Source: Gemmatirosa kalamazoonensis (GTDB lineage Bacteria; Gemmatimonadota; Gemmatimonadetes; Gemmatimonadales; Gemmatimonadaceae). Taken from it: a DNA stretch of 64,000 nucleotides. The stretch is taken from NCBI RefSeq assembly GCF_000522985.1, contig NZ_CP007128.1:1596220-1660219 (forward strand), given 5' to 3'. Within the stretch, counting starts at the first letter, position 1. Every line of letters begins with the position of its first letter. The notes beneath the pieces are model-generated. The model made no database searches. It was given only the letters and a program-made list of their open reading frames with translations, and had not been told where the DNA came from. Shown in pieces: positions 41,088-47,746 of the stretch. Position numbers and translations under genes: made by a program.

Positions 41088-42296
41088 TCAGAGCCCTTCC
41101 TTGAACAGCAGCTTGTTAGGCGTCCCCGCGATGTTGTTCTGGATCGCGTTCAGCACCGCGCGCGTGAGGATCCACGTGCGCGCCGCCGTCGCCGTCCCCT
41201 GCGGGTTCAGGCTGAAGAACAGCGCCGCCACGCCCGCGACGTGCGGCGAGGCCATCGACGTGCCGCTCAACACCTTCGTGCCGTTGACCGGATAGTCCGA
41301 CGTGATGCCGGCGCCCGGCGCGTAGATGTGCACGCACGGCCCCCAGTTGGAGAACGCGGCCCGCGCGTCGTCGCGGTCCGACGCCGCCACCGTCGTGGCG
41401 CCCGGCGCGCTCGCCGGCGACACGTTGCACGCGTTCATGCGATCGTTGCCGGCCGCGACCGCGGTGAACACGCCCGACTTCACGAGGTTCGTCGTCGCGC
41501 GGTTCACCGCCGCGGAGAAGCGACCGCCGAGCGACATGTTCGCCACCGCGGGCGACTGGTGGTTCGCCGTCACCCAGTTGATGCCGGCGACGATGCCCGC
41601 GTACGTGCCGCGTCCGGTGCAGCTCAGGACGCGCACCGCGCGCAGGCGCACCTGCTTCGCCACGCCGTAGGTCGTGCCGCCGACGGTCCCGGCGACGTGC
41701 GTGCCGTGGCCGTTGCAGTCCTGGCCGTTGCCGCCGAACGCGTCGAACACCGCGGTCGCGCGTCCGCCGAAGTCGGGATGCGCGGTCTGGATCCCGCTGT
41801 CGATGATGTACGCGTACACGCCCGCGCCCTGGCCGTTGCCGTGGTAGTGGTACAGCGCGTCGAGCGGCAGGAACCGGTCGTCGATGCGGTCGAGCCCCCA
41901 CGTCGCGCCGTTCTGCACGTCGGACGCGATCACCTCCTGGTCCTGCTCCACGAAGTCGACGATCGGGTCGTGCGCGATCGCGTCCGCCGCGGCGGCGGTC
42001 ATGTGCGCGGAGAAGCCGCGCAGCGCGTGCTCGTACACGAAGCCGAGCGTCGCGCCCTGCGCGGCGGTGAGCCGCGTGGCGATCGCGCGCACGTCGGACG
42101 GTGCGACGTCGTCCTTCAGCACCACGAGGTACTCGTCGGGAATCGGCTGGCTCGTCGGGTCCGGCGCCAGCGCGGTCGACGCGTTGGGCGCGGGTGTCGG
42201 GCGCGCGCCGGGCGCGCTCGGCGGGTCGGCGCAGGCGAGGATGGCGGCGAGCGCGGTGAGCGCGGTGAGCGCGTGAGGGGCGCTGAGGCGAGGCAT
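41088..42296 (-). CDS. Secreted subtilisin-family (S8, proteinase K-like) serine protease with I9 propeptide
   Basis: A 402-residue lipoprotein-like exported protease. Signal with possible lipobox (ALTALAAILAC), an inhibitor I9 propeptide (about residues 53-125, YLVVLKDDVAPSDVRAIA), then the catalytic triad in VYAYIIDSGIQTAHPDF (Asp), CNGHGTHVAGTVGG (His) and LSGTSMASPHVAGVAALF (Ser). ATG 42296 is preferred over an upstream GTG because GGAG lies seven bases before. The C-terminus has no PEP-CTERM or T9SS tail. Confidence 0.93.
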   Translation of the reverse strand: MPRLSAPHALTALTALAAILACADPPSAPGARPTPAPNASTALAPDPTSQPIPDEYLVVLKDDVAPSDVRAIATRLTAAQGATLGFVYEHALRGFSAHMTAAAADAIAHDPIVDFVEQDQEVIASDVQNGATWGLDRIDDRFLPLDALYHYHGNGQGAGVYAYIIDSGIQTAHPDFGGRATAVFDAFGGNGQDCNGHGTHVAGTVGGTTYGVAKQVRLRAVRVLSCTGRGTYAGIVAGINWVTANHQSPAVANMSLGGRFSAAVNRATTNLVKSGVFTAVAAGNDRMNACNVSPASAPGATTVAASDRDDARAAFSNWGPCVHIYAPGAGITSDYPVNGTKVLSGTSMASPHVAGVAALFFSLNPQGTATAARTWILTRAVLNAIQNNIAGTPNKLLFKEGL

Positions 42297-42403
42297 GGGC
42301 ACGCTCCGGCAGCGGGGGTGAGCGGCCGAGCGCGCGAGCGTCGAGCGGAGGGCCGCTGCGAACGAAAGGCGGCGGCGAGCGGAATCGTCATCCGCCCGCC
42401 GCC

Positions 42404-42442
42404 GCCTAACGATCGACCCGCCTAACGCGCGTGATGCCTAAC
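42404..42442. repeat. Three GCCTAAC heptamers at exact 16-base spacing
   Basis: GCCTAAC starts at 42404, 42420 and 42436 in the gap between two leftward genes; the last copy contains the TAG stop codon of the PEP-CTERM gene. Intervening bases are unrelated apart from CG-richness. Confidence 0.95.
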
Positions 42443-43211
42443 GGCGTCGCCGCACCGCCACGCCGGCCAGCGCCAGGAGTCCCGACGCGACCAGCAGCAC
42501 GCTCCGCGGCTCCGGCACCGCCGCGAGATCGAGCGTGATCGCGGCCGACGGCACCGTGCTGCCGCACGTCGGGAACGACGGGTCGCCCGACTCGCACGTG
42601 AAGCTCAGCTCCGCGAACGTCGCCCCCGGCACCAGCGTCGTGGAGTACGTCACCGTGCTGCGCGACGCGTCGATCACCACCGGATGCACGAGGTCGAAGA
42701 CGAACACGAAGAAGTTCGTCTCGCGCCCCGGCCGCACCGGCAGCCCGCTCACGTTGCGGTAGTCCATCGTCACCGCGAGCCCGTCGTCGGTCACGGTGAG
42801 CGCCCACCCCGGGTTCGGCGTCCCCGGCACGTCGGGCAGCGACGTGAAGATCGGCAGCGGCTGCACGCCCGCGCCCGGCGTCGCCGGCGGCTCGCTGCCT
42901 CCGACCGCGAACGGACCGAGCAGCCCGCTCAGCGCCGCGTTGAACACGAACCCGGGTCCGCTGAAGTCGTAGTCCAGCGTCATCCCGATGTGCGTCACGT
43001 CGCCCTTCGGGTCGGCGCGGATCACCGTGCGGTAGCAGCTGTACAGCGTGCCGCCGAGCGGGTCGCACACGTCGTAGAGGAACTTCCCCGAGTTCGTCGG
43101 GACCCCGAAGCCGCCGCCGACGATCGCGTGCGCCGTGCGTGGGATCGAGGCGCCGCCGGCGGCGGCGGCGAGCAGCAGCGTCGTGCCGAGCGTGAGGCGC
43201 GGACGAGTCAT
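42438..43211 (-). CDS. PEP-CTERM-sorted exported protein
   Basis: A 257-residue protein with a signal peptide (LLLAAAAGGASIPRTAHA), a beta-rich mature domain with four Cys (YDVCDPLGGTLYSCY, ELSFTCESGDPSFPTCGS) and a C-terminal PEP-CTERM signal: VPEP, a hydrophobic helix (LLVASGLLALAGVAV) and a basic tail RRRR. The PEP-CTERM/exosortase system processes such proteins at the envelope, often with exopolysaccharide production. No exosortase gene is in this window. The mature domain is unassigned. Divergent from a sigma factor gene. Confidence 0.85.
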   Translation of the reverse strand: MTRPRLTLGTTLLLAAAAGGASIPRTAHAIVGGGFGVPTNSGKFLYDVCDPLGGTLYSCYRTVIRADPKGDVTHIGMTLDYDFSGPGFVFNAALSGLLGPFAVGGSEPPATPGAGVQPLPIFTSLPDVPGTPNPGWALTVTDDGLAVTMDYRNVSGLPVRPGRETNFFVFVFDLVHPVVIDASRSTVTYSTTLVPGATFAELSFTCESGDPSFPTCGSTVPSAAITLDLAAVPEPRSVLLVASGLLALAGVAVRRRR

Positions 43212-43373: not shown

Positions 43374-44129
43374 ATGGAGCACCTGCCGCCCGACGGCGCG
43401 ATCGAGGAGAGCGCGCGACCGACCTGGCCGCGCCTCGCCGGTCCCGAGCGCCCTGCGCCCGCCGCCGACCCGGTCGCCGACGCGGTCGCCGACGCGGTCG
43501 CCGACGCGGACGCCGCGCGCCACGTGCGCGGGCGGCCGCTCGGCGAGCTGCTCCTGCTGATGCAGTCGACGCGCGCGGCGATGCGCGAGGCGGCGTGGGC
43601 GGAGTGCTACCGGCGCTATCACGAGGTCGTGTGGACGCGCGTGTTCTACGTCATCCGCTCCATCTCGTGGCTCCCCGAGCCGCGCGAGGTGGCGGCCGAC
43701 GTGGCGAGCGACGTGTTCGTCGGCCTGCCCGACGCGGCGCGGCACTACCGCGAGCAGGGGCGCGCCGAGTGGTGGCTGAAGCAGGTCGCGGTGCGCACGG
43801 CGCTGCGACGCAAGGCCGCGCTCACCGGGCGATGGGCGTCCGACGCCGCCGGCCGCCGCTCCGTGTCGCTCGACGACGCGGCCGACGAGGTCGTGCAGGA
43901 GCTGGACGCCGTGGAGCCCGAGGAGCTGATGGAGCTCGAGCGCCGCCTGGAGCTCCTGCGCGCCAGCCCCGAGCCGACGAAGCGCCGGTGGGCGGAGTTC
44001 ATCGCGCTGTACGTGGACGGCTGCAGCTTCCAGGAGATCGGCGCGCGGCTCGGCCTCTCCGACGGCACCGTCCGCAACTGGCTGTGCCAGATCCGGAAGT
44101 TCCTCGCCCAGCCGCTGACCGCGGAGTGA
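43374..44129 (+). CDS. Sigma-70 family (ECF-like) sigma factor of the CHAT locus
   Basis: A 251-residue protein: a 50-residue low-complexity lead (VADAVADAVADADA), region 2-like RRYHEVVWTRVFYVIRS...REVAADVASDVFVGLPDAARHY with WWLKQVAVRTALRRKAAL, a linker, and region 4 with FIALYVDGCSFQEIGARLGLSDGTVRNWLCQIRKFL (shown here in pieces, residues about 210-245). It is larger and more diverged than the other sigma factors of the window. The stop overlaps the following membrane protein gene (TGATG). ATG 43374 is the first sensible start. Confidence 0.8.
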   Translation: MEHLPPDGAIEESARPTWPRLAGPERPAPAADPVADAVADAVADADAARHVRGRPLGELLLLMQSTRAAMREAAWAECYRRYHEVVWTRVFYVIRSISWLPEPREVAADVASDVFVGLPDAARHYREQGRAEWWLKQVAVRTALRRKAALTGRWASDAAGRRSVSLDDAADEVVQELDAVEPEELMELERRLELLRASPEPTKRRWAEFIALYVDGCSFQEIGARLGLSDGTVRNWLCQIRKFLAQPLTAE

Positions 44130-44995
44130 TGCAGATGCCCGACCGGCTCCCCCCGTCCACCGGCGATTCGCACCCGATGCCCGACGACGAGACGCCGACC
44201 CGCGTCGATGCCGCGCTGTCGCTCGCGAGCCGGCCGCCCGCGGATCTGCTGGCGCGCATCCAGGCGCGTCGACGGGCCGGCGACCAGGTGGAACTGCCCG
44301 TCGTCGACGACGAGACCGAGACGCCGGCCGATGCGCACCTGCGCGCGGCGCTCAGCCTCATGAGCCGCCCGCCGGACGACGTGCTCGGGCGCGCCGCCGC
44401 GCGCCGTGCCGCGGGCGAGCGCGTGCTGCTGCCCACGGTGCCCGCGCCGCGCCGCCGCTGGCGCTGGATCGCCGGCCCGCTCGGCGTCGCCGCGGTCGCG
44501 CTGCTCACGGTACGCGTCGCCCGCGACCCCGCCATCGACCGGTCCGCCGCGCAGCAGCGTCGGGCCGACGTGGCGTCCCCGAGCCTCCCGCCGTCAGGCA
44601 TCCCGAAGTCGAACGTCCCGCCGTCGATCGTCCCGCCGTCCGTCGTCCCGCCGTCGATCGTCCCGCCGTCCGTCGTCCCGCGTCCGGCCCGCTCCCGCGC
44701 CGTCACGCTGCCCGTCGACTCGGCCGCCGCCGACTCGTCCACCGTCGCCGTCGCGCTCGACTCGACGGAGACGCAGCTCGTCGACTCCATCGCGCGCGCG
44801 CTGCGGGGCGACGATGCGCTGCGCGTCGAGATCCGATACACGGATCCATCGTTCCGTCGCACGTCGTCGTCGTGGAGGCTGCTGCAGCTCGCGAAGGACC
44901 GCCTGCTCGCGGCCGGTGTGGCCGAGGAGCGCATCCGTGCCGTGCGCGTGCCGGCGACGCGCGGCCCGATCGAGGTGGTGACCCGCACGCGTTAG
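44129..44995 (+). CDS. Membrane protein with duplicated N-terminal motif, putative sigma regulator
   Basis: A 288-residue protein not known to me. The cytoplasmic N-terminus has two copies of a motif of about 36 residues: AALSLASRPPADLLARIQAR..GDQVELPVV and AALSLMSRPPDDVLGRAAAR..GERVLLPTV. One membrane helix follows (WIAGPLGVAAVALLTVRVA, about 112-130), then an extracytoplasmic stretch with PPSIV/PPSVV repeats. The C-terminal domain is faintly like OmpA-C (VEIRYTD..., LAKDRLLAAGVAEERIRAV). Coupling to the sigma gene suggests that the twin motif binds the sigma factor. The TAG stop is inside GTTAGGC. Confidence 0.65.
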   Translation: MQMPDRLPPSTGDSHPMPDDETPTRVDAALSLASRPPADLLARIQARRRAGDQVELPVVDDETETPADAHLRAALSLMSRPPDDVLGRAAARRAAGERVLLPTVPAPRRRWRWIAGPLGVAAVALLTVRVARDPAIDRSAAQQRRADVASPSLPPSGIPKSNVPPSIVPPSVVPPSIVPPSVVPRPARSRAVTLPVDSAAADSSTVAVALDSTETQLVDSIARALRGDDALRVEIRYTDPSFRRTSSSWRLLQLAKDRLLAAGVAEERIRAVRVPATRGPIEVVTRTR

Positions 44996-45018
44996 GCAGC
45001 CGGCGGAGGACACCCCCA

Positions 45019-47538
45019 ATGTCAGCCCTCGCGACGTTCGTCCTGCTCGGCGGCGCGCTCTCCCTCCGCGCGCCTAACGTTGCGCCTGACGTCGCGCAGC
45101 CCGCGCCCGAGGGCGCGGAGACGCTCGCCGCGCGCGCCGACAGCGCCGCGCGGCGCCAGACCGAAGCCGGGCTGCGCGACGCGATCGCGCTCTGGGACCG
45201 CGCGGCGGCGCTGTATCTCGTCGCCGGTCGGCGCGCCGACGAAGGACAGATGCTCCACAACGTGGGGCGCACCCTCGGCAACCTGGGGCGCCCCGACTCC
45301 GCGCTGCTCTACTTCCAGCGGGCGCTCGACGCGCGCCGCGCGGCGGGCGACCGGCGCGGCGAGGGCGCGACGTTGGGCGCGCTCGGCACCGCGTACCAGC
45401 GCCTCCGCCGCGCCGACTCGGCGCTGAGCTACTACCGGCAGGCGCTCGTCGTCCAGCGCGAGACGCGCGACCGTCCGGCGGAGGCCACGACGCTCGCCAA
45501 CGTCGGCCGGCTGTACGAAGGGCTCGCGCTCCCCGACTCCGCGCTCCGCTACTACCGGCAGGCGCTCCCGATCCAGCGCGAGGCCGGCAACAAGCAGGGC
45601 GAGGGACGCACGCTCATCAACCTCGGCACGGTCTACCGCGTGCTCGGAAGACTCGACTCCGCGGTGAGCTACTACCGCCGCGCGCTTCCCATCGCGCGCG
45701 AGGCGCGCGATCGGCCCGCCGAAGGCTCGGCGCTCGCGAACGTCGGCGCGTTCTGGGCCGACGCGGGACGCCCCGACTCGGCGCTCGCGTACTACCGCGC
45801 GGCGCTTCCCATCACGCAGCAGGTGGGCGATCGCTCGGCGGAGGGCGCCACGCTCGCGAACGTGGGGCGCTCGTTCCAGGACCTCGCGCGCCCGGACTCC
45901 GCGCTGAGCTACTACCGGCTCGCGCTCGCGCTGCAGCACGACGTCGGCGACGCGACGGGCGAGGGAACGACGCTGAACAACGTCGGCGCGATCTACGCGG
46001 ACCTCGACCAGGGCGACTCGGCGCTGGGCTATTACGGGCGGGCGCTCGCCGTTAGGCGCGCGGCCGGCGACCGGCGCGGCGAGGGGCGCACGCTCACGAA
46101 CGTCGGTCGGCTGTACGTCGAGCGCCGCGCCGCCGAGCAGCGCGACCCCGCGCGCGGCGTCGCGTACCTCGACTCCGCCGCCGCGGTGTACGCCGGGATC
46201 CGCCGCCACGCCGGCGCCGACGCGAACGCCATCAGCTTCGCCGAGGACAACCGCGAGCTGTTCACGGTGTGGACCATGGCGTGGCTCGCGCGCGGTGCCG
46301 AGCTGGGAGCCGCGGCGAGCGCGCGCGGCGCGCTGGCCGTCGCCGAGCGCGGGCGGGCGCAGGCGCTGCTCGACCTGCGGCGCGGCGCACGGCGCGACGA
46401 CGCCATGCCTAACGCCGGCGCCGACCTCGTCGCGGAGACGGACTCGCTCGTCGCGCCCCTGCGCCGCGCGGGCACGGCGGCGCTGAGCTACCTCGTCACC
46501 CGCGACACGCTCGTCCGGTGGCTCGTGCTTCCTGACGGCGCGGTGGAGGTGAGCCGCGTGGCGGTCGCGCGCGACTCGCTGGAGGCGCTCGTCGCGCGGT
46601 GGCGCGACGACGTGGAGCACGCACGGCGGCGCGACCCGGCCACCGCGGCGCGGCTCGCCGGGCTGCTGCTGCCCGAATCGTTGGGCGCGCGGCTCGCGGC
46701 GGGGCGCGATCTCGTGATCGTGCCCAACGGCGCGCTCGCCGTGCTGCCGTTCGGTGCGCTCCCGGCGGGCGACGCACCGTTGGGTGCCCGCTGGGCGGTG
46801 CACTACGCGCCCTCGCTCGCGACGCTGGTGCCGACGCCCCGCGCCGAGCGCGACGCGGATCGGCCCGTGGTGCGCGCGGTCTCCCGCGAGCGGACGCGGG
46901 CGCCGATCGCCGACGCGCTCGTGGTCGGCAACCCCACCATGCCGCCGATCCCGGGTGGGCGGCTGGAGCCGCTCCCCGCGGCCGCGCGCGAGGCGCGGTG
47001 GCTCGGCACGTACCTCGGCGTCCAGCCGCTCACCGGGTCTGCCGCGACCGAGTCCGCGGTGCTCGCCCGGCTGCCGGGCGCGGCGCTCGTCCACTTCGCG
47101 ACGCACGGGTACGCGTTCACGGCGGACGGGCGCGTCCGCGACTCGTTCGTCGCGCTGGCCCCCGACTCGGCGAACGACGGGCTGCTCACCGTCGGCGAGG
47201 TGCTCGACGATCCGGCGCTCACGCTCTCGGCCGACCTGGTCGTGCTGTCGGCCTGCGAGACCGGGCTCGGCAACCTGACGCAGGCCGAGGGGACCGTGGG
47301 GCTCGCGCGGGCGTTCCTCGCGAAGGGCGCGCGCAGCGTCCTCGTGAGCCTGTGGAGCGTGTCCGACGAGGCGACCGAGCTCCTCATGCGACGCTTCTAC
47401 GGCCACTGGCTCGGCGACGCGGACGGGCCGAGCAAGGCGGAGGCGCTGCGTCGGGCGCAGGGGGACGTGCGGCGGACGCCGGGGTTCGCGCACCCCCGCT
47501 ACTGGGCGGCGTTCCAGCTCGTCGGCGGCGGGAACTGA
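45019..47538 (+). CDS. TPR-CHAT protein (caspase-like protease fold)
   Basis: An 839-residue protein with an N-terminal hydrophobic segment (ALATFVLLGGALSL). Eight TPRs of 40 residues follow (about 75-390, unit like LANVGRLYEGLALPDSALRYY), then a helical linker and a C-terminal CHAT domain (about 540-838). The CHAT His is in VHFATHGYAF (H696) and the Cys in VLSACETGLG (C746), so the caspase-like dyad is intact, followed by GLARAFLAKGARSVLVSLW. CHAT proteins are peptidases that often act after a TPR senses a partner. The gene starts 23 bases after the putative sigma regulator, so a shared transcript is likely. Confidence 0.9.
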   Translation: MSALATFVLLGGALSLRAPNVAPDVAQPAPEGAETLAARADSAARRQTEAGLRDAIALWDRAAALYLVAGRRADEGQMLHNVGRTLGNLGRPDSALLYFQRALDARRAAGDRRGEGATLGALGTAYQRLRRADSALSYYRQALVVQRETRDRPAEATTLANVGRLYEGLALPDSALRYYRQALPIQREAGNKQGEGRTLINLGTVYRVLGRLDSAVSYYRRALPIAREARDRPAEGSALANVGAFWADAGRPDSALAYYRAALPITQQVGDRSAEGATLANVGRSFQDLARPDSALSYYRLALALQHDVGDATGEGTTLNNVGAIYADLDQGDSALGYYGRALAVRRAAGDRRGEGRTLTNVGRLYVERRAAEQRDPARGVAYLDSAAAVYAGIRRHAGADANAISFAEDNRELFTVWTMAWLARGAELGAAASARGALAVAERGRAQALLDLRRGARRDDAMPNAGADLVAETDSLVAPLRRAGTAALSYLVTRDTLVRWLVLPDGAVEVSRVAVARDSLEALVARWRDDVEHARRRDPATAARLAGLLLPESLGARLAAGRDLVIVPNGALAVLPFGALPAGDAPLGARWAVHYAPSLATLVPTPRAERDADRPVVRAVSRERTRAPIADALVVGNPTMPPIPGGRLEPLPAAAREARWLGTYLGVQPLTGSAATESAVLARLPGAALVHFATHGYAFTADGRVRDSFVALAPDSANDGLLTVGEVLDDPALTLSADLVVLSACETGLGNLTQAEGTVGLARAFLAKGARSVLVSLWSVSDEATELLMRRFYGHWLGDADGPSKAEALRRAQGDVRRTPGFAHPRYWAAFQLVGGGN

Positions 47539-47746
47539 GTCGTCTGTGTCGTACCACAGACCAGTGTCTTTACGGAGGGACAGAGCCGCCGCCCGATCGC
47601 CGGCGGCATTTCATAACTCGTTCAACGGCAATGACTTTCGTGGACGTTCACGGGATGCGACAGTGGCGGCAAACATGCGTTGTGACCTCCTGGCGCCGCG
47701 GGCTCGGACCACGCGGCGTGTCACCGGAGCAGCCCAGGAGGCGATG

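Follow-up and report, generated by a model that had tools for sequence, protein, structure and literature searches.

A 64,000-nucleotide stretch of the Gemmatirosa kalamazoonensis genome (NCBI RefSeq assembly GCF_000522985.1, contig NZ_CP007128.1, positions 1,596,220 to 1,660,219 of the forward strand), hereafter called the window, carries three co-directional open reading frames (ORFs) on its plus strand between positions 43374 and 47538. These genes encode an extracytoplasmic function (ECF) sigma factor (P0001), a single-pass membrane protein (P0002) and a TPR-CHAT protein (P0003), as an earlier note on this DNA had described. The host genome comprises 7.48 Mb in four contigs, with a 5.31 Mb chromosome and two replicons of ~1.1 and ~1.0 Mb. 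Judged by layout, the three genes look like one operon, because the ATG of P0002 begins on position 44129, which is the last base of the sigma factor stop codon TGA (44127-44129), because the ATG of the CHAT gene (45019) is placed 23 bases past the P0002 stop (44995) behind a GGAGG sequence, and because a terminator-like hairpin, a weak signal in itself, follows the CHAT gene (Table 1).

The sigma factor scores 53 bits against the sigma70-ECF model TIGR02937, which is over the cut-off, and it also matches Sigma70_r4_2. Although P0001 had been called a diverged sigma factor, it proved to be an ordinary ECF protein with orthologs in a neighboring genus, designated g7, that are 57% identical over the aligned part. 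These orthologs start about where residues 51-56 of the reading from 43374 align, and we therefore favor GTG 43524 as an alternative start codon that better fits the orthologs and regard the start at 43374 as uncertain. A 12-base tandem repeat, CGCCGACGCGGT, lies in-frame at positions 43463-43510 within the resulting N-terminal extension, upstream of GTG 43524.

P0002 is very probably the anti-sigma factor of the adjoining sigma factor, because a homolog carrying the zinc motif HxxxCxxC directly follows the orthologous sigma gene in g7. There the sigma gene overlaps a gene of ~225 codons whose product has HxxxCxxC (HVASCAEC in genome G006) followed by ALSLGSKPSASLTEKIRVRR, a membrane helix and, C-terminally, a small domain. 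The earlier note had recognized a single membrane-spanning segment, a Pro-rich stalk and a twin motif in P0002, and all three are evident. The two copies of the twin motif, ALSLxSRPP, score 100 when aligned to each other (shuffled sequences, 27.6 +/- 5.6 with a maximum of 59), and either copy aligns with the g7 anti-sigma factor just after its zinc motif with scores of 64-90 (shuffled means 26-31, maxima 53-60). Helix 4 of class I anti-sigma factors contacts sigma region 2 (PMC7406223), and given this role and the g7 alignment, the likeliest interpretation of the twin motif is a duplication of the helix-4 segment. Similar segments are present in the anti-sigma factors at loci L083, L084, L092 and L093. 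HxxxCxxC itself, which the g7 ortholog keeps, was not found in P0002, which is thus probably an anti-sigma factor that has lost its zinc motif. This motif is missing from ~44% of class I anti-sigma factors, and ~79% of Gemmatimonadetes ECF sigma factors have a class I anti-sigma neighbor (PMC7406223). Eight further P0002-like matches in the phylum adjoin an ECF gene, and all those inspected in full directly follow it. The C-terminal domains of P0002 and the g7 protein are only marginally similar (47-48 versus a shuffled mean of 30-31). Matches to P0002 within its own genome fall mostly in the Pro-rich stretch and resemble low-complexity matches, and searches of Pfam, NCBIfam and PADLOC with this protein gave no match.

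The third protein matches PF12770 with 223 bits over residues 542-836, downstream of a TPR array at approximately residues 75-390. The earlier note had described an intact His-Cys dyad that includes C746, and both H696 and C746 are in place in an alignment of 70 CHAT proteins. A hydrophobic segment occupies approximately residues 3-16 and is uncharged on its N-terminal side, and clade mates show clearer signal peptides, such that export of P0003 across the inner membrane is likely rather than certain. An AlphaFold model built from the single sequence renders the TPR helices well and the CHAT part mostly with a predicted local distance difference test score below 50. In a sequence search of solved structures with P0003, the matches listed are to TPR proteins, with no CHAT structure among them, and a scan of IMG/VR found no relatives.

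Table 1. Features of the sigma factor, membrane protein and TPR-CHAT locus (window coordinates).
Feature	Position	Strand	Evidence
ECF sigma factor P0001, 251 aa	43374..44129	+	TIGR02937, Sigma70_r4_2, g7 orthologs
Single-pass membrane protein P0002, 288 aa, probable anti-sigma factor without zinc motif	44129..44995	+	Gene overlap, homology, ECF-linked relatives
Helix-4-like motif, first copy (ALSLASRPPADLLARIQARRRAGDQVELP)	44201..44305	+	Internal repeat score
Helix-4-like motif, second copy (ALSLMSRPPDDVLGRAAARRAAGERVLLP)	44318..44440	+	Internal repeat; comparison with g7 anti-sigma factor
Predicted transmembrane helix (~residues 114-132), N-terminus inside	44468..44524	+	Hydropathy peak, preceding RRRWRW
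Pro-rich extracytoplasmic stalk (~residues 152-186), PPS(I/V)V repeats	44582..44686	+	Sequence; DNA repeat D5
Small C-terminal extracytoplasmic domain, non-FnIII-like type	44780..44992	+	Marginal similarity to that of g7 anti-sigma factor
GGAGG ribosome-binding site of CHAT gene	45005..45009	+	Sequence
TPR-CHAT protein P0003, 839 aa	45019..47538	+	PF12770, TPR families, TPR helices in model
Catalytic His696 codon	47104..47106	+	HFATHG motif, alignment of 70 CHATs
Catalytic Cys746 codon	47254..47256	+	VLSACETG motif, Cys in 70/70 aligned CHATs
Terminator-like hairpin with T-rich tail, directly 3' of CHAT stop	47542..47561	+	Weak: 1 found versus 0.6 expected by chance

The most interesting result lies beyond these coordinates, and it is the recurrence of sigma/anti-sigma pairs beside TPR-CHAT genes, many of them with an anti-sigma ectodomain that tracks CHAT. 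We retrieved the surroundings of 70 CHAT genes from the family Gemmatimonadaceae, which represent most of the best-scoring ones. An ECF gene lies within 1.4 kb of 34 of these 70, whereas only 3.4 such cases are expected from the density of ECF genes 2-7 kb away, which corresponds to an approximately tenfold enrichment (a first, non-iterated sigma model had given 24 CHAT genes with an ECF gene nearby). The 70 genes come from related genomes, for which reason Poisson probabilities computed from these counts are too favorable, and the linked ones constitute several separate groups in the CHAT tree. The linked sigma factors likewise form about five groups by identity, and the linkage spans several CHAT clades.

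Two layouts predominate. In about 20 loci the genes are co-directional, in the order sigma factor, anti-sigma factor, CHAT, and in about 14-16 loci the CHAT gene is convergent to the sigma/anti-sigma pair; two loci have the sigma gene downstream of CHAT on the same strand. The gene that follows the sigma gene was read automatically in 32 loci besides the window, and its product has a hydrophobic segment (a 19-residue hydropathy mean of at least 1.1) in 32/32 and HxxxCxxC in 23/32, while four of eight linked anti-sigma factors tested pass the cut-off of Pfam zf-HC2. Many of the sigma-linked CHAT proteins begin with a lipobox or a signal-peptide-like sequence. The window genome holds a convergent module of its own (L145:4794-10566; G000:C2 ~1372768-1373944), in which the anti-sigma factor is of the fibronectin type III (FnIII) kind. 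Its CHAT match is divided between two reading frames that overlap, and this gene looks frameshifted unless there is a sequence error.

The association also reaches outside the phylum. Two plasmids of Aureibacter tunicatorum (Bacteroidota) encode a sigma factor, a single-pass membrane protein and a CHAT protein in the same order as the window. Among the plasmid CHAT genes examined from proteobacteria, cyanobacteria and deinococci, the annotated ones had no sigma gene in the stretches displayed, and two plasmid records were unannotated there. Plasmid p3 of Azospirillum brasilense (L172:1-10646) carries a tandem pair of CHAT genes within a few kilobases of a caspase family gene. Because the linkage recurs through the family and the same gene order is found in a Bacteroidota strain, there is strong support for a functional link of TPR-CHAT proteins with sigma/anti-sigma pairs.

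A second line of evidence comes from the extracytoplasmic part of the anti-sigma factors. Most of the sigma-linked ones share an ectodomain that, judged by its sequence pattern, appears to be FnIII-like. A model built from the anti-sigma factors of the convergent layout matches 15 of 15 FnIII-type proteins of the co-directional layout (E 4e-9 or better), whose sigma factors belong to other groups, and it has no match in four anti-sigma factors without CHAT neighbors, in P0002 or in the g7 protein. When 24 whole genomes were searched, from which one of the eight seed sequences derives, 16 of the 19 matches lay within ~5.5 kb of a CHAT gene; five tested genomes without strong CHAT matches yielded none. 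The exceptions are two matches in genome G015 and a pair in the window genome (L179:10601-11900; G000:C2 ~4825000), where a sigma gene of the convergent-module type is followed by an FnIII-type match with no CHAT gene in 18 kb. In genome G003 (L181:5022-5873; G003:C21 ~44063), the FnIII-like domain also occurs alone, besides the anti-sigma copy, in an ORF that resembles a lipoprotein gene and diverges from a CHAT gene. In one linked subgroup (L130, L139 and L163), TPR-like ectodomains take the place of the FnIII-like type.

Against this background, the window locus is itself singular. We surveyed 298 genomes of the phylum and 179 of the family. Close homologs of P0001 in the phylum are confined to three g7 genomes (G006, G135 and G118), with one more distant relative; in the family they occur in 4/179 genomes, which are these three (the G118 contig ends at the locus) and the window genome. 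A scan of 84,980 species returned two g7-type loci only. The same three-gene order, which the earlier note had proposed to seek in other genomes, is thus not conserved: the exact trio was seen in the window genome alone among the family genomes, and we rejected it as a conserved unit given that the sigma homologs are nearly confined to g7 and have no adjoining CHAT gene. What adjoins the orthologous sigma/anti-sigma pairs are C14 caspases, which, like CHAT, are clan CD peptidases. In both G006 and G135, all three C14 genes of the genome reside on the contig of the sigma pair within ~9 kb, with the two nearest convergent with that pair (L080:4378-7985 and L081:6030-9459) and the third nearby. 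The two nearest C14 proteins have lipoprotein-like or signal-peptide-like N-termini.

The closest relatives of the window CHAT gene (on contig C4 of the same genome, in G015, in G037 and on contig 5 of G006) have no adjoining sigma/anti-sigma pair, and this gene is the sole sigma-linked member of a 13-row clade in the tree of 70. Three TPR-CHAT genes of this clade are clustered on the 1.04 Mb replicon of the window genome (L050; G000:C4 279000-298000) with no sigma gene nearby. Like the family module, the window has its sigma, anti-sigma and CHAT genes adjacent to one another. However, it lacks the FnIII-like ectodomain of that module, and so the locus may work like the family module without being a member in the narrow sense.

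We prefer the reading, which we hold to be somewhat short of probable, that the three genes form an operon for an extracytoplasmic CHAT-gated sigma switch. This reading draws on the operon packing, the homology of P0002 to a zinc-finger anti-sigma factor, the 34/70 linkage, the 16/19 ectodomain matches close to CHAT, the lipobox and signal-peptide-like CHAT proteins, the C14 caspases that adjoin the g7 pair, the gene order in Bacteroidota and the type III-E precedent (PMC10028731). P0002 would sequester the sigma factor inside the cell, in keeping with an N-in/C-out topology predicted from charges and from the position of the anti-sigma segment. The TPR-CHAT protein would reside outside the inner membrane, where its TPR part might sense or bind a signal. 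With the anti-sigma ectodomain and the CHAT protein both outside the inner membrane, control would run from the latter to the former: the CHAT domain would act on the stalk or the C-terminal domain, either by ectodomain binding or, most simply, as a site-1 protease, and the sigma factor would then be released. It is realistic to suppose that a caspase-like protease located beyond the inner membrane takes part in transcriptional control. The protease-gated switch of the earlier note gains from the recurrent linkage, including the Bacteroidota order, and loses from the lack of conservation of the window trio.

Several other observations also weigh against the switch. P0002 has no FnIII-like ectodomain (E ~0.8-0.9 with both ectodomain models), and the absence of a charged residue ahead of the hydrophobic stretch of P0003 leaves export of this protein short of certain. 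The convergent layout places the CHAT gene outside the sigma operon. Finally, in a sigma-linked subclade of CHAT proteins (L108, L112, L113 and L123), HLATYG or HLATSG replaces the His motif while the Cys is retained, and these proteins are putative pseudo-proteases. Proteolysis therefore cannot be the universal role of the linked proteins.

Perhaps the CHAT protein is instead an output of the system, wherein the operon is driven by its own sigma factor and CHAT, as an exported protease related to stress or death, is made when the switch is on, with ordinary proteases of the envelope, or a ligand, releasing the anti-sigma factor. ECF sigma factors commonly autoregulate, and a sigma gene at the head of the operon fits both the window and the ~20 co-directional loci. 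However, the 14-16 loci with a convergent CHAT gene imply a separate transcript, no convincing promoter motif shared by the sigma and CHAT genes emerged from four close convergent loci (a weak test), and an output role leaves the tracking of CHAT by one ectodomain type unexplained. We consider this explanation unlikely.

We judge it improbable that the TPR-CHAT protein is a non-cutting sensor or scaffold that shifts a bound ectodomain. The subclade noted above, in which Tyr or Ser replaces the catalytic His, fits a CHAT domain that would be a pseudo-protease-like fold in part of the family, and the shared ectodomain suggests binding, but the His is kept in 65 of the 70 CHAT proteins, including that of the window, and the Cys in all 70. 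It is very unlikely that the window CHAT gene came to lie beside the sigma pair through an accidental rearrangement and has no role there, since the tight co-directional packing, the hairpin after CHAT, the tenfold enrichment across the family and the clan CD peptidases of another family beside the orthologous pair all speak for a connection, even though its clade is otherwise free of sigma neighbors, the sigma orthologs lack CHAT, and eight CHAT loci plus many ECF pairs in 7.5 Mb would by rough estimate create a chance neighborhood with a probability of several per cent.

Beyond the CHAT-gated switch preferred for the window, we tentatively raise a broader possibility, namely that there is a widespread, undescribed form of envelope signaling in which exported, caspase-like TPR-CHAT proteins are devoted to membrane anti-sigma factors, either as their site-1 proteases or as sensors. 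Such systems may have been assembled repeatedly with different ECF groups, and might represent a non-CRISPR source of the sigma circuit of Craspase. Bacterial CHAT proteins are numerous and their substrates are mostly not known, and the recurrent anti-sigma linkage names both a candidate partner or substrate and a candidate output, sigma release. If true, protease-gated sigma logic of the Craspase type exists outside CRISPR, and on the opposite side of the membrane.

On the minus strand just upstream of the window operon are ORFs for a subtilisin-like protease (41088-42302) and a PEP-CTERM-like protein (42438-43211).

Among known systems, those of the RseA/DegS and RsiW type provide the mechanistic model, in which a site-1 protease attacks the extracytoplasmic region of a single-pass anti-sigma factor, although the candidate protease of the window would be caspase-like with TPR repeats rather than DegS-like. 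Members of ECF54 are sigma factors encoded near a CHAT-domain protein, a subtilase and a carboxypeptidase, and proteolytic control has been proposed for them (PMC8999054). Compared by description, that proposal concerns sigma factors without an anti-sigma factor, whereas the window unit has a probable one. Metacaspase (C14) operons of Myxococcus and other bacteria hold sigma-70 genes (PMC3501461), and EACC2-caspase systems include ECF and TPR genes (PMC8195603). These resemble the g7 relatives of the window locus in placing a caspase-like peptidase beside a sigma factor, but they use C14 instead of CHAT, and the text examined describes no membrane anti-sigma factor with a CHAT-tracking ectodomain. 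Likewise, the literature searched, which did not extend to the main ECF classification paper, held no description of the pairing between anti-sigma ectodomains and CHAT.

The closest parallel is the type III-E CRISPR system, in which RNA-activated Csx29 cleaves Csx30 and thereby relieves inhibition of CASP-sigma (PMC10028731). The statement of the earlier note that no CRISPR component is present agrees with our searches: neither Cas7-11 nor a crRNA was seen at the locus (Cas7-11 was not searched genome-wide), no CRISPR-like repeat array was found in positions 30000-64000, and the three proteins gave no match to cas-like families beyond a weak match to the Csa3 helix-turn-helix. Membership of P0003 in the Csx29 family was rejected (NF041237, 24 bits versus a cut-off of 300). 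The comparison with Csx29 that the earlier note had drawn thus fails as to family membership and, given the probable export of the window CHAT protein, as to topology, while the analogy in logic holds. In type III-E (PMC10028731) as in the window, a TPR-CHAT protein, a sigma inhibitor (a probable one in the window) and an ECF-like sigma factor are encoded together, and P0003 carries its His-Cys dyad (H696 and C746) within a TPR-CHAT protein. The window differs in that the probable inhibitor, P0002, is membrane-bound and extends outside the cytoplasm and that the CHAT protein, unlike Csx29, is probably exported. On the best reading, the window switch would resemble Craspase in its logic and not in its topology.

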